Shown one piece after another: positions 16,109-36,306 of a DNA stretch of 36,403 bases. The stretch spans positions 1 through 36,403 of the forward strand of contig DZAZ01000012.1 in the NCBI GenBank assembly GCA_022729755.1. Direction: 5' to 3'. The DNA comes from Helicobacter cetorum (GTDB lineage Bacteria; Campylobacterota; Campylobacteria; Campylobacterales; BB28). Made by a program: the position numbers and the translations under genes. Numbering within the stretch: the first letter of the stretch is position 1; every line of letters starts with the position of its first letter. The notes under the pieces were generated by a model that saw only the letters and a program-made list of their open reading frames with translations, was not told the origin of the DNA and ran no database searches.

Positions 16109-17770
16109 ATGATAATTTCAGCAGGAAAAAATGAAACATTTAAATTTGCTCATCCAATCGGGGTTGGTTTAATTGAAAGTGCAATTAATTTAACAAAACT
16201 TTGCCTTTTTGATAGACCTGAATTTTTAATTTTTATTGGAAGTGCTGGAAGTTACACAAAAGAGTATAAAATTTTTGATATTATTGAGAGTTTTAGTGCT
16301 TCAAATGTGGAATTATCGTTTTTGCAAAATAATTCATACACTCCAATTGATAATGTTATTAGTTTGCAAAAAAGTGTAATAATAAATTCAAGTAATTATA
16401 TAAGTACAAATTTTAATTTAACTCAAAAGTTTTTAGCTTTTGATATAAAGCTTGAAAATATGGAGTTTTTTTCAGTTTTAAAAGTTGCACAAATGTTTGG
16501 TATAAATGTAAAAGGAATTTTTATAATTACAAATTACACCGATGAAAATGCACACAGTGATTTTATCAAAAATCACGATGAAGCGATGAGTAAATTGATT
16601 AAATATCTAAGCCAAAAATATAGCATAAGTCCAAATTTAAGCCAATTTTTAAATCCAAAACCACTTTTTTATAATGAGATAGATTATACAAGAATGCCAA
16701 AAGCTTATGAGAGTATTAAAAATTATTTTGATTTTAGCAAAACAAAAATTATTCATATCGTAGGAACTAATGGCAAAGGCACAACGGGGCGATTTTTGGC
16801 ACACTATTTATATAAATTGGGTTTTAAAACACTTCATTATGCTTCACCTCATATTTTAAAATTTAATGAGCGAATTTGGATAAATGGAAGTGATGTAAGC
16901 GATATTGAATTAGAAAAAGCTCATCAAAAATTACTCTCTATTTTGCCAAAAGAGTTTCAAAATTCACTAAGTTATTTTGAATATACCACACTTTTAGCCT
17001 TTTTAATTGCTAATAATATGGATTTTATTGTTTTAGAAGCTGGACTTGGTGGGGAGTTTGATGCAACGAATGTGATTAAAAGTGATTTAAGCTTAATTAC
17101 GACGATTGATTTTGACCATCAAGAATTTTTAGGAAATACAATTAAAGAGATTGCTTCTACAAAATTAAAATCTATCGATAAAGTGGCAATTATAGGCAAA
17201 CAAATTCATAGCGAAGTTCTTGAAATAGCTAAAAATTTGAATAAAAAATATTTTGATTTTAGAGAGTTTTTTGACAATGATGATGAATTCAAAGAGTTTA
17301 TAAATCAAAAAAATTTTCCACTATTTTTACTTGATAATTTAAAATTAGCACTGTTGGCCATTAAATTTTTTGATTTAAAGATTGATGTAAATTTACTTAG
17401 TGATATTAAACTTTTTGGTAGATTTTATAAAATAAAAGAAAATATTACGATAGATGTGGGACACAATCCACTTTCAGCAATTGTTATAAAAGATGCAATC
17501 GGCGATAAAAAAATTAATTTAATTTATAATAGTTTCAAAGATAAAAATTATGAAGAGATTTTAAAAATATTAAAGCCAATTATAAAAGAGGTTTTTATTT
17601 TTCCAATACAAAATCCTAGAATTGTGCAAAAAGAGAAATTAGAGGAAGTTTTAATTAAATTAAATATAAAATTTTGTGATTTTAAGAGCTTAAATAAAGA
17701 TGAAGAGTATTTAGTTTATGGCTCATTTTCATTGATAGAAAATTTCATAAAATGGCTGGAGGCTAAATGA
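16109..17770 (+). CDS. folC: Fusion: nucleoside phosphorylase/nucleosidase-like domain + folylpolyglutamate/dihydrofolate synthase (FolC)
   Basis: N-term FLIFIGSAGSYT…LENMEFFSVLKVAQMFGI…HDEAM (PNP_UDP-like); C-term HIVGTNGKGTTGRFLAHYL…SPHILKFNERI…EAGLGGEFDATNVI…HQEFLGNTI (FolC). Confidence 0.85.
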   Translation: MIISAGKNETFKFAHPIGVGLIESAINLTKLCLFDRPEFLIFIGSAGSYTKEYKIFDIIESFSASNVELSFLQNNSYTPIDNVISLQKSVIINSSNYISTNFNLTQKFLAFDIKLENMEFFSVLKVAQMFGINVKGIFIITNYTDENAHSDFIKNHDEAMSKLIKYLSQKYSISPNLSQFLNPKPLFYNEIDYTRMPKAYESIKNYFDFSKTKIIHIVGTNGKGTTGRFLAHYLYKLGFKTLHYASPHILKFNERIWINGSDVSDIELEKAHQKLLSILPKEFQNSLSYFEYTTLLAFLIANNMDFIVLEAGLGGEFDATNVIKSDLSLITTIDFDHQEFLGNTIKEIASTKLKSIDKVAIIGKQIHSEVLEIAKNLNKKYFDFREFFDNDDEFKEFINQKNFPLFLLDNLKLALLAIKFFDLKIDVNLLSDIKLFGRFYKIKENITIDVGHNPLSAIVIKDAIGDKKINLIYNSFKDKNYEEILKILKPIIKEVFIFPIQNPRIVQKEKLEEVLIKLNIKFCDFKSLNKDEEYLVYGSFSLIENFIKWLEAK

Positions 17771-18672
17771 GAAATAGATTTACTATTACAATTTCTGATA
17801 TAAGTGGGAGCAGAAGTTATGATGTACATCAAATAGTTAAAAAAATAGTTATTTATACAATATTAATAACAATAAGTTTATTTGTAATTGGTGGTTATTC
17901 TATTTCGTTTCTTATTTCGCAAGTTGAAGAGTTAACTTCAAAAAAAGAGTTAATGAGTGAAGAGTACCAAACACTTCAAAGAGAAAATGAAATTTTAAGC
18001 GAAAAAATTTTGCAAAAAAGTGAAGATTTAGATGCAATTAGCAATAAAGTTAATGATATTGAGGGGCTTATTGGACTTAGATTTAATGAAAATTTAACAC
18101 TAAATGAAAGAGTTGATTTAGCAAAATTCACAACAGCAGAAAAACAACACATTATAAGGCAAATTCCAAATGGTTATCCAATCGAAAATAGTGGAATTAA
18201 TAGTCAATTTGGTTGGCGAACTCATCCGATTTTAAAAAAGAAAGAGTTTCACTCTGGTCTTGATTTAAAAGCTAATATGAATACTAAAGTTTATGCAACA
18301 GCCGATGGTGTAGTGGAGTATGCTGGTAAACACTCAAGTAGTGGTTATGGAAATTTAATTATTATGTCGCATAGTTTTGGATTTAAGAGTTTTTTTGCAC
18401 ATTTGGATAAAATAAATGTGGAGATTGGAGACATAATATCTCAAGGGGATTTAATAGGTGAAAGCGGCAGTAGTGGGCTTAGTAATGGGCCACATTTGCA
18501 CTATGAAGTAAAATACATAAATATGCCCCTTGACCCTATGAACTTTGTTGAGTGGAATATGCAAAACTATGAAACAATCTTTGAAAAGGAGAAAAAAGTA
18601 AAATGGCAATCTTTAATAAATTTGATAAACAAAGTGGCGGTGCAACAATCATCGCAAAAGGGTGAGAGTTGA
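17767..18672 (+). CDS. M23/LytM peptidoglycan endopeptidase, Csd1/Csd2-like cell-shape protein
   Basis: TM + coiled coil, SQFGWRTHPILKKKEFHSGLDLKA…GNLIIMSHSFGFKSFFAHL…GPHLHYEV; located between folC and ccmA as in H. pylori. Confidence 0.85.
   Translation: MRNRFTITISDISGSRSYDVHQIVKKIVIYTILITISLFVIGGYSISFLISQVEELTSKKELMSEEYQTLQRENEILSEKILQKSEDLDAISNKVNDIEGLIGLRFNENLTLNERVDLAKFTTAEKQHIIRQIPNGYPIENSGINSQFGWRTHPILKKKEFHSGLDLKANMNTKVYATADGVVEYAGKHSSSGYGNLIIMSHSFGFKSFFAHLDKINVEIGDIISQGDLIGESGSSGLSNGPHLHYEVKYINMPLDPMNFVEWNMQNYETIFEKEKKVKWQSLINLINKVAVQQSSQKGES
18602..18662 (+). repeat. Left copy of perfect 61-bp direct repeat (5' end of ccmA / 3' end of csd)
   Basis: aatggcaatctttaataaatttgataaacaaagtggcggtgcaacaatcatcgcaaaaggg, identical to 21726-21786. 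Confidence 0.98.
18603..18665 (+). pseudogene. Vestigial 20-codon 5' fragment of ccmA (MAIFNKFDKQSGGATIIAKG*)
   Basis: Same frame and sequence as the intact ccmA start at 21727, with AAAAGGAG upstream, truncated by TGA at 18663-18665. Confidence 0.85.
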
Positions 18673-19808
18673 GAGAAGAAGATAAGAATAAAAATGAAGA
18701 AGTTGAAATTATTGAAGAATTAGAAGGTGAAAATAGTTTAAATCCTAGCCATAATGATGTAAATGATGTAGAAAAAATTTATCCAAATGCAAATATAAAA
18801 GTTGAAAGAGGACAATTTTCTGTTTTTGAATTGAAAAGAAAATATGAAAAAGAACAAATTATAATGAATCCAGATTTTCAACGAAATGAAACTTGGGAAA
18901 AGAAGCAAAAATATGAACTTATAGAATCTATTTTAATGGGAATACCATTGCCACTTATATATTTAACAGAAAATAGAGAGGGCAAATTAATTATTATTGA
19001 TGGAAGACAAAGATTAACTACTCTTTTTGAATTTTTAGATAATAAATTTAAATTAAATAAATTAAGAATCTTACATAAATTAAATGATAGTTATTTTAAA
19101 GATTTAGAACCAAAACTTCAAGCAAATTTAGAAGATTATCAATTAATATCACATATTATAAAACCACCAACACCTGACAGAATAAAATTTGACATATTCG
19201 ATAGAGTAAATAGAGGAGGAACTCCGCTAAATAATCAAGAGATGAGAAATGCCATATATCAAGGAGAATCTACAAAACTATTAAAAAAGCTTAGCGAACT
19301 TGAAATTTTTAAAAAAGCAACAGGAAACTCAATTAATGCAAAAAAGATGAAAGATAGATATCTAATACTTAGATTTTTATCTTTTTATCTTTTAAAAAAA
19401 GAAAAATTACTAGTAGAATATAAAAGCGATATAGATGACTTTTTAGGTAAATCTATGGAGTATATAAATTCATTAAATGAAAATGAACTAAAAAAGTTAA
19501 AAACAGTTTTTATTACGGCAATGACAAATAGTTATGAAATATTAGGTAAAGATGCCTTTAGACTACCAAATGAAGACCCAAATAGAAATAGACCGGTAAA
19601 TATGTATTTTTTTGAATCAGTTAGTTTTTTACTTTGTAATAAAGATTTTATGAATTTAAGTGAAAAAATAAAGAGTATTTATAAAGATTTAATCAATAAT
19701 AAAGAATATTTAGACACCTTAACTTATACAATGGATAGTAGCATTAGTGTAATGAAAAGATTTGAAATTATAGACAAAGCGATAGAGGAGTTAGAAAATG
19801 CTAAATAA
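18669..19808 (+). CDS. DUF262 (GmrSD_N/ParB-like) domain protein, no C-terminal HNH evident
   Basis: F.VFELKRKYEKEQIIMNPDFQRNETW…LIESILMGIPLPLIYL…KLIIIDGRQRLTTLFEFL; TTG start overlapping csd TGA. Confidence 0.9.
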   Translation: MREEDKNKNEEVEIIEELEGENSLNPSHNDVNDVEKIYPNANIKVERGQFSVFELKRKYEKEQIIMNPDFQRNETWEKKQKYELIESILMGIPLPLIYLTENREGKLIIIDGRQRLTTLFEFLDNKFKLNKLRILHKLNDSYFKDLEPKLQANLEDYQLISHIIKPPTPDRIKFDIFDRVNRGGTPLNNQEMRNAIYQGESTKLLKKLSELEIFKKATGNSINAKKMKDRYLILRFLSFYLLKKEKLLVEYKSDIDDFLGKSMEYINSLNENELKKLKTVFITAMTNSYEILGKDAFRLPNEDPNRNRPVNMYFFESVSFLLCNKDFMNLSEKIKSIYKDLINNKEYLDTLTYTMDSSISVMKRFEIIDKAIEELENAK

Positions 19809-20850
19809 ATTATATATAAAAGATTTTAAATCAATAGATAACTTGACTTTAAATTTAAGATATTTAACTATTTTAGCAGGTACAAATTCAGCAGGAAAAT
19901 CTAGTATTATTCAATCTATTTTACTTTTATCTCATAATATAACTAATGATTTCAACTCTCCTCTTAATGGTCATTTAGTATCTATTGGTAACTTTGATGA
20001 AGCAAGTAATTTTATAACAAATGCTAAAAAATTCAATATAGACTTAGATGGTTTTGAATTAGAATTTATAGGCGATGATAGTAAAAAAAATTGTGAAGTT
20101 AAAATTATAAAAGATAATGAAGCTATAAAAGATGTATTAAATTATCATCGTAAAAAATTGCATTATATTTGTGCTGATAGATTAGGTAGTCAAGATTTAT
20201 ATTTAAAAAATTTTGATATGTATGACAAATTTGGAGTTTTTGGAGAATTTGCAATAGATTACTTTGAAAAAGAAAAAAGAAACCCAATAGAAAATAATTT
20301 AATAATCGATAAAAATAGTACTACATTAGAAACACAAGTCAATTATTGGTTGAAGTATATTATAAATGCAAAATTACAAACTAATGAAATAATGGAAAGC
20401 GATAGAGTAAAAGCAACCTTTAATTATATGAATAATCGCCCAGTTAGAACAAAAAACATCGGTTCAGGACTTAGTTATATTATCTCTATTTTAATTGTTT
20501 GCTTAGCTTCAAAAAAAGATGATGTGATTATTATCGAAAATCCTGAAATTCACTTGCACCCAAAAGCCCAATCAAAATTAACTGAATTTTTTACATTTAT
20601 TGCAAATGCAGGAATACAACTTATTATTGAGACTCATAGCGACCATATTTTTAATGGTATTAGAGTAGCAGTAAATAAAAAGAGAATTTCTACTGATAAA
20701 ATATCTATTAACTTTTTTGACTTAGATATGGAAACCCTTTTAACAAAACATTCAGAGATAAAATTAAATGAGTATGGTGGAGTTATAAACCATATAAATG
20801 GACTTTTTGACCAGTTTGATGATGATTTAGATGAGCTATTAGGACTGTAA
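19798..20850 (+). CDS. AAA ATPase with DUF3696-type C-terminus
   Basis: LAGTNSAGKSSIIQSILLLS Walker A; GSGLSYIISIL signature; DVIIIENPEIHLHPKAQSKL Walker B; IETHSDHIFNGIRVAV; overlaps previous gene by 11 nt. Confidence 0.9.
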   Translation: MLNKLYIKDFKSIDNLTLNLRYLTILAGTNSAGKSSIIQSILLLSHNITNDFNSPLNGHLVSIGNFDEASNFITNAKKFNIDLDGFELEFIGDDSKKNCEVKIIKDNEAIKDVLNYHRKKLHYICADRLGSQDLYLKNFDMYDKFGVFGEFAIDYFEKEKRNPIENNLIIDKNSTTLETQVNYWLKYIINAKLQTNEIMESDRVKATFNYMNNRPVRTKNIGSGLSYIISILIVCLASKKDDVIIIENPEIHLHPKAQSKLTEFFTFIANAGIQLIIETHSDHIFNGIRVAVNKKRISTDKISINFFDLDMETLLTKHSEIKLNEYGGVINHINGLFDQFDDDLDELLGL

Positions 20851-20851
20851 A

Positions 20852-21724
20852 ATGGAGGTTTTAATAAATGAATTATCATTAGATGGGCAATTTAGTGATG
20901 AAAATGATTTTTTAGAAAAGAGTTTATATATTTTAGAAGTTTTAAAATTAATGAAAAAATTTGATTTTATCCATTTAAAAAAAGAAGATTTTTGTGAATC
21001 TAAAATTTCAAATAAATTAACTTTTTTCAATCTTTTAAAAATAAGAGATAGTAAGTATAAATTAGAACTTGATACAATAAGAGTATTTAAAAGATTTTTT
21101 TCACCACTATATGGAGAACCATATTGGAATGAGACACAAAAACATAATTTAAATGATATTTATTTATATAACCTACAAAATATTAATAATAGTTCTTTAG
21201 CAGAGAGTTGTGAGAGAGATAGAGTAGTTTTATCATTTAAACATAATGATTTTTTAAGTGAAAATTTAAAAGTTCAAAGAAATGAAGAAGATATAGATAT
21301 TTATAATATTTTTGAAAAAAATTTATTTCTTGACTTTTTAATTTTTAATTCACAAATAGATTTGATAAACTACTTTAATTTTAGATTTAAAAATTTAGAA
21401 TTAATAAAAAACTTAAATCGCTATCCACTAATAGAATTTATTGAATCTCAAAAAATTGAACTTAAACATAGCATTATAGCTATAGTATTAGAGTTTTTCT
21501 ATCTAAAAAATAACAATTTAAAGATAGATGAAAATTTATCAAAAAATTTAGGAAAAGGTTTATTTGAATTAAGAGGTAATTTTGAAGATGGAATATTTAG
21601 AATCTTTTATTTTTATAATAATGATGATATAGTGTTTATTAATGGATTTATAAAAAAATCAAATCAAACTCCAAAAAATGAAATAGAAAATGCAAGAAAA
21701 ATAAAAATAGAATATAAAGGATGA
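20852..21724 (+). CDS. Uncharacterised protein with C-terminal HigB/Gp49-like (RelE-superfamily) toxin-type domain
   Basis: C-term YPLIEFIESQ…NLGKGLFELRGNFEDGIFRIFYFYNNDDIVFINGFIKKSNQTPKNEIENARKIKIEY matches the Gp49/HigB pattern; starts 1 nt after the ATPase stop. Confidence 0.75.
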   Translation: MEVLINELSLDGQFSDENDFLEKSLYILEVLKLMKKFDFIHLKKEDFCESKISNKLTFFNLLKIRDSKYKLELDTIRVFKRFFSPLYGEPYWNETQKHNLNDIYLYNLQNINNSSLAESCERDRVVLSFKHNDFLSENLKVQRNEEDIDIYNIFEKNLFLDFLIFNSQIDLINYFNFRFKNLELIKNLNRYPLIEFIESQKIELKHSIIAIVLEFFYLKNNNLKIDENLSKNLGKGLFELRGNFEDGIFRIFYFYNNDDIVFINGFIKKSNQTPKNEIENARKIKIEYKG

Positions 21725-21725
21725 C

Positions 21726-21786
21726 AATGGCAATCTTTAATAAATTTGATAAACAAAGTGGCGGTGCAACAATCATCGCAAAAGGG
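21726..21786 (+). repeat. Right copy of perfect 61-bp direct repeat (start of intact ccmA)
   Basis: Identical to 18602-18662; offset 3124 bp. Confidence 0.98.
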
Positions 21787-22188
21787 ACAAAGTTAAGTGG
21801 TGATATTGAATTAGAGTGTACTTTGCATATTGATGGGATTTTTGATGGTACGATTAATTCAAAAAGTATGGTAACTATTGGTAAAAGTGGGGTAGTTAAT
21901 GGTGAAGTTTTTGCAAATAAAGTTATGATAAGTGGAAGTTTTTCTGGAGTTATTGACTCAGAATTTGTTGAAATTTTAGCCGAAGGTAGAGTTTTTGGAA
22001 AAGTTATTGCAAAAGAGTTTATGATTGAAAAAAAAGGGCTTTTTGAGGGAGAAAGTCGAGTGAAAAATATCGATAAAAATACTCTAAAAGATGTAAAAAC
22101 AATAAATATCGAACAAGATAAGTTAACTAATAAAAACGATGTTGCAAACTTAGAAAATAAGTTAGATGTGAATAAGCCAAAAATTTGA
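21727..22188 (+). CDS. ccmA: Bactofilin (CcmA)
   Basis: GTKLSGDIELECTLHIDGIFDGTINSKSMVTIGKSGVVNGEVFANKVMISGSFSGVIDSEFVEILAEGRVFGKV; upstream ATG at 21721 also possible. Confidence 0.9.
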   Translation: MAIFNKFDKQSGGATIIAKGTKLSGDIELECTLHIDGIFDGTINSKSMVTIGKSGVVNGEVFANKVMISGSFSGVIDSEFVEILAEGRVFGKVIAKEFMIEKKGLFEGESRVKNIDKNTLKDVKTINIEQDKLTNKNDVANLENKLDVNKPKI

Positions 22189-27807: not shown

Positions 27808-28308
27808 ATGACAATGGTAACACTTGAGACGAATTATGGAAACATTACACTTAAACTTTATGAGGATAAAGCTCCAATTACGGTTGAAAATTTTTTAAAA
27901 TATGTAGATGATGGTTTTTATAATGGAACGATTTTTCATAGAGTAATTCCAAACTTTATGATACAAGGTGGTGGAATGGATGTAAATATGCAAGAAAAAG
28001 AGAACAATCCACCAATTAAAAATGAGGCAAACAATGGCTTAAGTAATAAGCGAGGAACTATTGCAATGGCCAGAACTATGGTAGTTGATAGTGCTACAAG
28101 TCAATTTTTTATCAATACAAATAACAATACTTTTCTTGACCACGGTGGTAGAGATTTTGGATATGCAGTTTTTGGAGAAGTAGCTGAAGGAATGGATACC
28201 ATAGATAAAATCTCATCTACAAAAACAGGCTTTTCTGGAATGCACCAAGATGTACCACTTGAGCCTATAATTATTCAAAAAGCTTATAAAAATAGTGAAA
28301 AAGAGTAA
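27808..28308 (+). CDS. Cyclophilin-type peptidyl-prolyl isomerase (cytoplasmic)
   Basis: [14 protein letters not shown]…[32 protein letters not shown] before ATG 27808. Confidence 0.93.
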
Positions 28309-35781: not shown

Positions 35782-36306
35782 ATGAAAAAAATTGTTGTAA
35801 TGCTAACTTTAGCTGTTGGTTTAATGGCAGGTAATTCTATTGTTGTGCTTGAGACAAATCAGGGCAATATTGAGCTTAAATTAAATGAAGAGGTAGCTCC
35901 AAAAGCTTGTGAAAATTTTAAAGGACTTGTGAAAACAGGTTATTATAATGGACATATTTTTCATAGAGTTATAAAAAATTTTATGATTCAAGGCGGAGAC
36001 CCAACAGGCACGGGAAGAGGTGGCGAGTCTATTTGGAATAAGCCATTTGAAGATGAATTTTCTCCAAAAGCTTTATTTGACAAAGCGGGAATTTTGGCAA
36101 TGGCTAATGCAGGTAAAAATACGAATGGAAGTCAATTTTTTATTACTACAAAGCCAACTCCTTGGTTAAATGGACATCATACAATTTTTGGTGAAGTTGT
36201 GAGTGGTTATGATGTTGTGCAAAAAATAGAAAATACAAAAACGGCTCCTGGGGATAAACCTACTGAAGCGCAAAAAATTATAAAAGCTTACATAAAAGGT
36301 AATTAG
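35782..36306 (+). CDS. Secreted cyclophilin-type peptidyl-prolyl isomerase
   Basis: Signal peptide MKKIVVMLTLAVGLMAG; HIFHRVIKNFMIQGGDPTGTGRGG…GSQFFITTKPTPWLNGHHTIFGEV. Confidence 0.95.
   Translation: MKKIVVMLTLAVGLMAGNSIVVLETNQGNIELKLNEEVAPKACENFKGLVKTGYYNGHIFHRVIKNFMIQGGDPTGTGRGGESIWNKPFEDEFSPKALFDKAGILAMANAGKNTNGSQFFITTKPTPWLNGHHTIFGEVVSGYDVVQKIENTKTAPGDKPTEAQKIIKAYIKGN

Follow-up and report, generated by a model that had tools for sequence, protein, structure and literature searches.

A Menshen defence operon bracketed by a 61-nt direct repeat within the csd-ccmA gene overlap of Helicobacter cetorum

The window analysed here, a whole stretch of 36,403 nt (contig DZAZ01000012.1) from a draft genome of Helicobacter cetorum (132 contigs, 88% complete), carries a three-gene cargo of 3.06 kb between two cell-shape genes, csd and ccmA, which overlap in relatives. 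We found that the cargo matches the anti-phage system Menshen (nsnA-nsnB-nsnC) and that it lies between two exact copies of a 61-nt sequence comprising the start of ccmA. The operon was probably inserted into the csd-ccmA overlap without a dedicated recombinase, by way of a circular donor molecule and a single crossover, resulting in a 61-bp target duplication. The original prediction for this DNA had recognized a mobile module at a gene overlap but held neither the identity of the cargo nor a precedent for the style of insertion; both are added here, the former from profile matches and the latter from the literature.

The two copies of the repeat, at positions 18602-18662 and 21726-21786, are identical at 61 of 61 nucleotides, with a start-to-start spacing of 3124 nt, and the repeat, when extended, shows 94% identity over 72 nt. 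Given the base composition, about 4e-24 exact pairs of 61-mers would be expected by chance, and only two copies were present genome-wide. The repeat begins 1 nt before the ATG of ccmA and spans the ccmA-csd overlap except for its last 10 nt, so that the left copy is at once the 3' end of csd and an orphan ccmA start, and the right copy opens an intact ccmA. With the cargo present, csd ends in ...VAVQQSSQKGES (...QSSQKGES) before its stop codon, the first cargo bases supplying a new stop (TGA); in the joined empty-site reading it ends in ...VAVQQSSQKGQS (...QSSQKGQS), with a 70-nt overlap with ccmA. Only one csd residue is therefore altered, and the original prediction of a perfect repeat around three genes, with both host genes preserved to within one residue, held in full.

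Since their products match the PADLOC models of NsnA, NsnB and NsnC in that order, the three cargo genes, at 18669-19808, 19798-20850 and 20852-21724, all on the forward strand like csd and ccmA, are on profile evidence a complete Menshen operon. NsnA, a DUF262/GmrSD_N protein, scored 384.5 bits (residues 11-375 on profile positions 20-382 of 385) and matched Pfam GmrSD_N with 98.2 bits, its DGxQR residues being invariant across 15 aligned NsnA sequences; a review (PMC10952713) states that Menshen no longer protects once its DUF262 gene is mutated or deleted. NsnB, an AAA/OLD-type ATPase whose gene is adjacent to and co-directional with nsnA, scored 325.6 bits over profile positions 1-349 of 350 and matched Pfam AAA_15 (89.5 bits) and DUF3696 (23.5 bits); no TOPRIM match was found in NsnB with Pfam. 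NsnC matched one PADLOC model over residues 1-189 (140.7 bits) and a second NsnC model over residues 1-288 (107.5 bits), and its N-terminal part is followed by a Gp49/RelE-HigB-like domain encoded at about 21494-21700 (Pfam Gp49, 53.9 bits, residues 215-283). The G+C content is 22.8% for the cargo and 18.9% for nsnC, compared with 28.6% for the whole window, and the low value of the cargo is compatible with a foreign origin. The nearest NsnA relatives are about 50% identical and are scattered over phyla (Scalindua, Sulfurospirillum, Sulfurovum), so that they point to no particular donor. A second Menshen copy in the same genome, at C31, has no bracketing repeat of this kind, and 334 kb of the genome showed no other clear insertion of the repeat-bracketed type.

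The genes flanking the cargo are a csd-type M23 peptidoglycan peptidase gene (17767-18672; Pfam Peptidase_M23, 103.9 bits), whose 3' end is made up of the left repeat copy plus the opening bases of the cargo and whose nearest NCBIfam model, Helicobacter shape Pgp3, scored under its cutoff, and the bactofilin gene ccmA (21727-22188; Pfam Bactofilin, 84.2 bits), the product of which shares 66% identity with that of the congener G001 over residues 1-149. The joints are tight: nsnA starts at a TTG that overlaps the csd stop (TTGA), and nsnA and nsnB overlap by 11 nt. The orphan ccmA start forms a mini-ORF of 20 codons, MAIFNKFDKQSGGATIIAKG, at 18603-18665, which may be translated in the cell and whose stop precedes the start codon of nsnA by 3 nt. 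At the other end, the motif AAAGGA (21716-21721), within the last nsnC codons and 5 nt ahead of the ccmA ATG, is likely to be a replacement ribosome-binding site for ccmA. Because of the csd stop/nsnA start overlap and the location of AAAGGA inside nsnC, coupling of defence and shape genes is expected, and we predict that Menshen is co-expressed with the shape operon and that ccmA uses the new ribosome-binding site.

In the relatives of the same order that we inspected and in which the two genes stand together, the 3' end of csd lies 55-136 nt inside ccmA, out of frame; the overlap of 4 nt printed for one of them (L029) is due to an internal ATG taken as the ccmA start, and the upstream ATG at 1450 gives 103 nt. 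The csd1/ccmA overlap of H. pylori is 82 nt, and the same report describes the overlapping arrangement as conserved among further curved species and other Campylobacterota (PMC9507126). As the order-level relatives and H. pylori share the out-of-frame overlap, the empty, overlapping state is inferred at the order level to be ancestral. The original prediction had called for a comparison of this locus with genomes lacking the cargo, and the comparison yielded this single overlapping state; none of the ccmA matches listed for relatives carried an already duplicated ccmA start, the finding that would have spoken against an insertion. Among 104 genomes with both genes placed, csd and ccmA abut or overlap in 98; in one, the match edges are 47 nt apart, in three, all from a single genus, the gap measures 0.16-0.47 kb, the genes are unlinked in G001, and the present genome alone (1/104) has a 3-kb insert. 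Because only one genome carries a multi-kilobase insert, we rejected the junction as an insertion hot spot, and the search for further cargos at this site, also suggested in the original prediction, found none of multi-kilobase size besides the present one. In G001, the sole congener, csd and ccmA lie on separate contigs (G001:C86 and G001:C73) with different neighbours, and the conserved overlap is broken there.

Pfam searches found no transposase or integrase among the three cargo genes, and an inverted-repeat scan gave only weak matches (70-83% complementarity) dispersed across the region, in line with the original prediction on both points. In the whole window, the tRNA search found none and the Rfam search gave no matches, and promoters and terminators in the region were not in excess over shuffled sequences. 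The borders are not attC-like and the 61-nt repeat is ccmA coding sequence, which argues against an integron cassette; likewise, a cargo lacking a recombinase, a window lacking a tRNA and a site not reused do not resemble an integrase-dependent island.

We found parallel insertions among Menshen loci collected from the same order plus named genomes. NsnA was matched in 33 of 399 genomes of the order, and tight bracketing by direct repeats was observed in 8 of the 90 loci with nsnA and nsnB, the window included, compared with 0.45 expected when the operon interval was slid along the same loci. Read one by one, four of the eight are of the insertion type: the window, the Campylobacter peloridis plasmid pPEL1, L127 and L161. 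The strongest parallel case, independent of the window, is pPEL1, in which Menshen lies between exact 66-nt repeats with abrupt ends on both sides, and for which C. lari pCL2100 and pCL_BCH-10973 supply the empty counterpart, with the same flanks contiguous and a single copy of the 66 nt. Two C. peloridis strains have plasmid records with this architecture, and the sequence of pPEL1 is complete. In C. armoricus pCA639-1 (L214; NZ_CP044261.1, 8472-10341), a KAP-type NTPase gene occupies the left junction of pPEL1 to within about 2 nt, and there the target was not duplicated but shortened by about 90 nt.

In L127, from a Flavobacterium metagenome-assembled genome (JAIFLT010000118.1, 1177-9057), Menshen abuts the start of a gene that we call methyltransferase-like by eye from its motifs, with no Pfam match, and copies of the first 19 codons of this gene precede both Menshen and, further upstream, a PD-T4-4 operon. 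The near orphan copy differs from the functional gene at five positions, all five at third codon positions. Two defence operons, PD-T4-4 and Menshen, are thus stacked ahead of one methyltransferase-like gene at this locus. In L161 (Streptomyces sp. SCUT-3), a luciferase-like monooxygenase gene has its 5' end repeated; 158 nt of the copies are identical, and the adjoining start region has diverged yet is still coding. The copies in L127 and L161 have the appearance of alleles of a single gene drawn from two genomes, not of a copy that later decayed. The four targets, namely the ccmA start, plasmid intergenic DNA, the methyltransferase-like gene start and the luciferase-like gene start, are mutually unrelated.

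The other four of the eight were rejected as cases of target duplication: L079 has an attC-like inverted repeat, L077 and L120 have paralogous genes (methyltransferase-like and GNAT-like, respectively, the gene types being assigned from sequence only), and L151 has a terminator-like palindrome. The repeats of L076, L088, L094 and L096 are of the tRNA type and fit ordinary integrase islands. In L079/L141 (JALUBH010000026.1), the Menshen operon lies between 133-nt repeats with attC-like inverted ends and may be an integron cassette. For PD-T4-4, the second defence system tested, tight bracketing was found in 1 of 14 loci; in L215 (G203:C1, 5827-8042), a PD-T4-4 operon is tightly bracketed by a 44-nt direct repeat of 89% identity with a palindromic core.

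From these arrangements we infer a donor, a circle and a crossover as follows. The incoming molecule would have carried nsnABC directly followed by a ccmA start and would have been circularized by end joining, with the junction at 18662/18663; the circle would then enter the chromosome at its ccmA start through a single RecA crossover, giving the order T-cargo-T, where T is the 61-bp target. Only events in which the duplication covers the overlap would keep both shape genes, so such a form would survive, and RecA-driven recombination between the two T copies would excise the cassette and bring back the exact ancestral overlap. Such a route would explain why no recombinase is present, why the right border falls sharply at a start codon, why the left border lies arbitrarily within coding sequence and why copies elsewhere are allelic, and a donor-borne anchor is favoured over a transposase or an attachment site because the copies in L127 and L161 differ as alleles. 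Genes of the ComEC and DprA families are present in the source genome, which allows, without proving, entry by transformation. Several points weigh against this account. With identical T copies in the window, a donor-derived copy is indistinguishable; the genomes compared include no same-species empty site, and with the genes unlinked in the sole congener the empty state is drawn from the order level; the eight bracketed loci include several of a different nature, such as attC-like sites and paralogous genes; a donor with Menshen already ahead of ccmA is required, and none was found; and the circle and the crossover are reconstructed steps, the product of which might also be expected from a recombinase acting in trans.

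That last route, in which an integrase or a serine recombinase acting in trans would have used the ccmA start as an attachment site, seems improbable to us. It would account for a long identical direct repeat and for the exact reconstitution of the downstream gene, and the junction shared by two cargos, Menshen in pPEL1 and the C. armoricus insertion, may be read in its favour; however, the latter lost part of its target without duplication, the cargo encodes no recombinase, separate Menshen copies sit in unrelated targets, and csd and ccmA remain abutting or overlapping in nearly all genomes compared. Of the original prediction, the module insertion, the long repeat and the homology-mediated route are supported, but the attachment-site-like alternative, in the integrase sense, is not. 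A more serious competitor is a true target duplication, in which illegitimate recombination would have attached the two ends of the cargo at points offset from each other, for instance on sister chromosomes, so that 61 bp of recipient DNA came to be present twice, with no homology in the donor. That the copies match perfectly, in the window as in pPEL1, and that the ends in pPEL1 are abrupt on either side suits this explanation, and insertions of this form have been described for restriction-modification genes. A duplication within the recipient, however, does not account for the distinct coding alleles of L127 and L161, and a repeat that begins 1-3 nt from the downstream start codon, as in the window and L127, would be expected if a donor cassette abutted the gene but not from random staggered joins; we regard a true target duplication as possible but doubtful. 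Least probable of all is that the assembly is in error or mixes strains, the genome being a draft or derived from a metagenome. Although the assembly is fragmented and incomplete and a small k could lead to mis-joining at a repeat of 61 bp, ordinary reads are longer than that, all joins make sense for the genes (the csd stop is restored, nsnC abuts ccmA and the operon is complete), and the same architecture recurs in the two C. peloridis strains.

Repeated sequences were also observed apart from this locus. Positions 27823-27971 and 35848-35996 of the window are segments of two paralogous cyclophilin-type peptidyl-prolyl isomerase genes, so assigned from translation only, with 70% DNA identity. 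Elsewhere in the same genome, at L192 (G000:C5, 251-13416), a stretch of about 11 kb with a 92-nt tRNA-like repeat at either end resembles an integrated island and contains further internal repeats of 182 nt (98.9% identity) and 60 nt (95%).

Duplication of the overlap lets the operon be opened without breaking either gene, which shows why such scars can be maintained. With the window and its Menshen parallels, insertion with long target duplication, known from restriction-modification genes, now takes in another defence system, the C. peloridis and C. lari plasmids give a clean pair of filled and empty sites, and the allelic repeat copies are a testable clue to a donor-borne homology anchor. 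Tentatively, defence operons might spread free of recombinases by carrying the 5' end of the downstream gene as a homology anchor and docking, even serially, through one RecA crossover, in which case the orphan start would be a scar and the cassette would be excisable to the exact empty site. None of the reports cited here (PMC3031569, PMC1643837, PMC3874152) gives a settled mechanism for this style of insertion, which was described for restriction-modification genes in 2000.

The present operon shares with known Menshen systems (NsnABC) the gene order, near-full-length matches of NsnA and NsnB, a match of NsnC, and the combination of a DUF262 protein with an AAA/OLD-type ATPase; it differs in the Gp49/RelE-like C-terminal domain of NsnC, in a weaker match to the NsnC models and in its position within a cell-shape operon. 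As for the insertion, the form of the window matches insertion with long target duplication, which, according to PMC3031569, PMC1643837 and PMC3874152, was recognized for restriction-modification systems, first from comparison of H. pylori strains, members of the same phylum, with Nobusato et al. (2000) and Furuta et al. (2010) named there for the original descriptions; the duplications are given as long and variable, of the order of 100 bp (PMC3874152, PMC3031569). Common to both are defence genes without a transposase bracketed by a long target duplication of tens to hundreds of bp, here 61 nt, exact and immediately flanking the module. The order-level relatives have the overlap in single copy, and for the parallel case pPEL1 a single-copy empty site is present in pCL2100. 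In contrast to the restriction-modification insertions, the cargo here is Menshen, the duplication coincides with a conserved out-of-frame overlap such that both genes survive, and two parallel Menshen loci have allelic, non-identical repeat copies. In Escherichia coli, circularization of incoming DNA followed by a single crossover gave duplications of 109-950 bp (PMC3240628), and that product, like the one proposed here, is an insert flanked by direct repeats of a homologous anchor and formed with no site-specific enzyme; it was, however, obtained by conjugation of designed plasmids in a search for homology-facilitated illegitimate recombination, whereas the present case is natural, spans 61 bp and has a mechanism reconstructed from its product.

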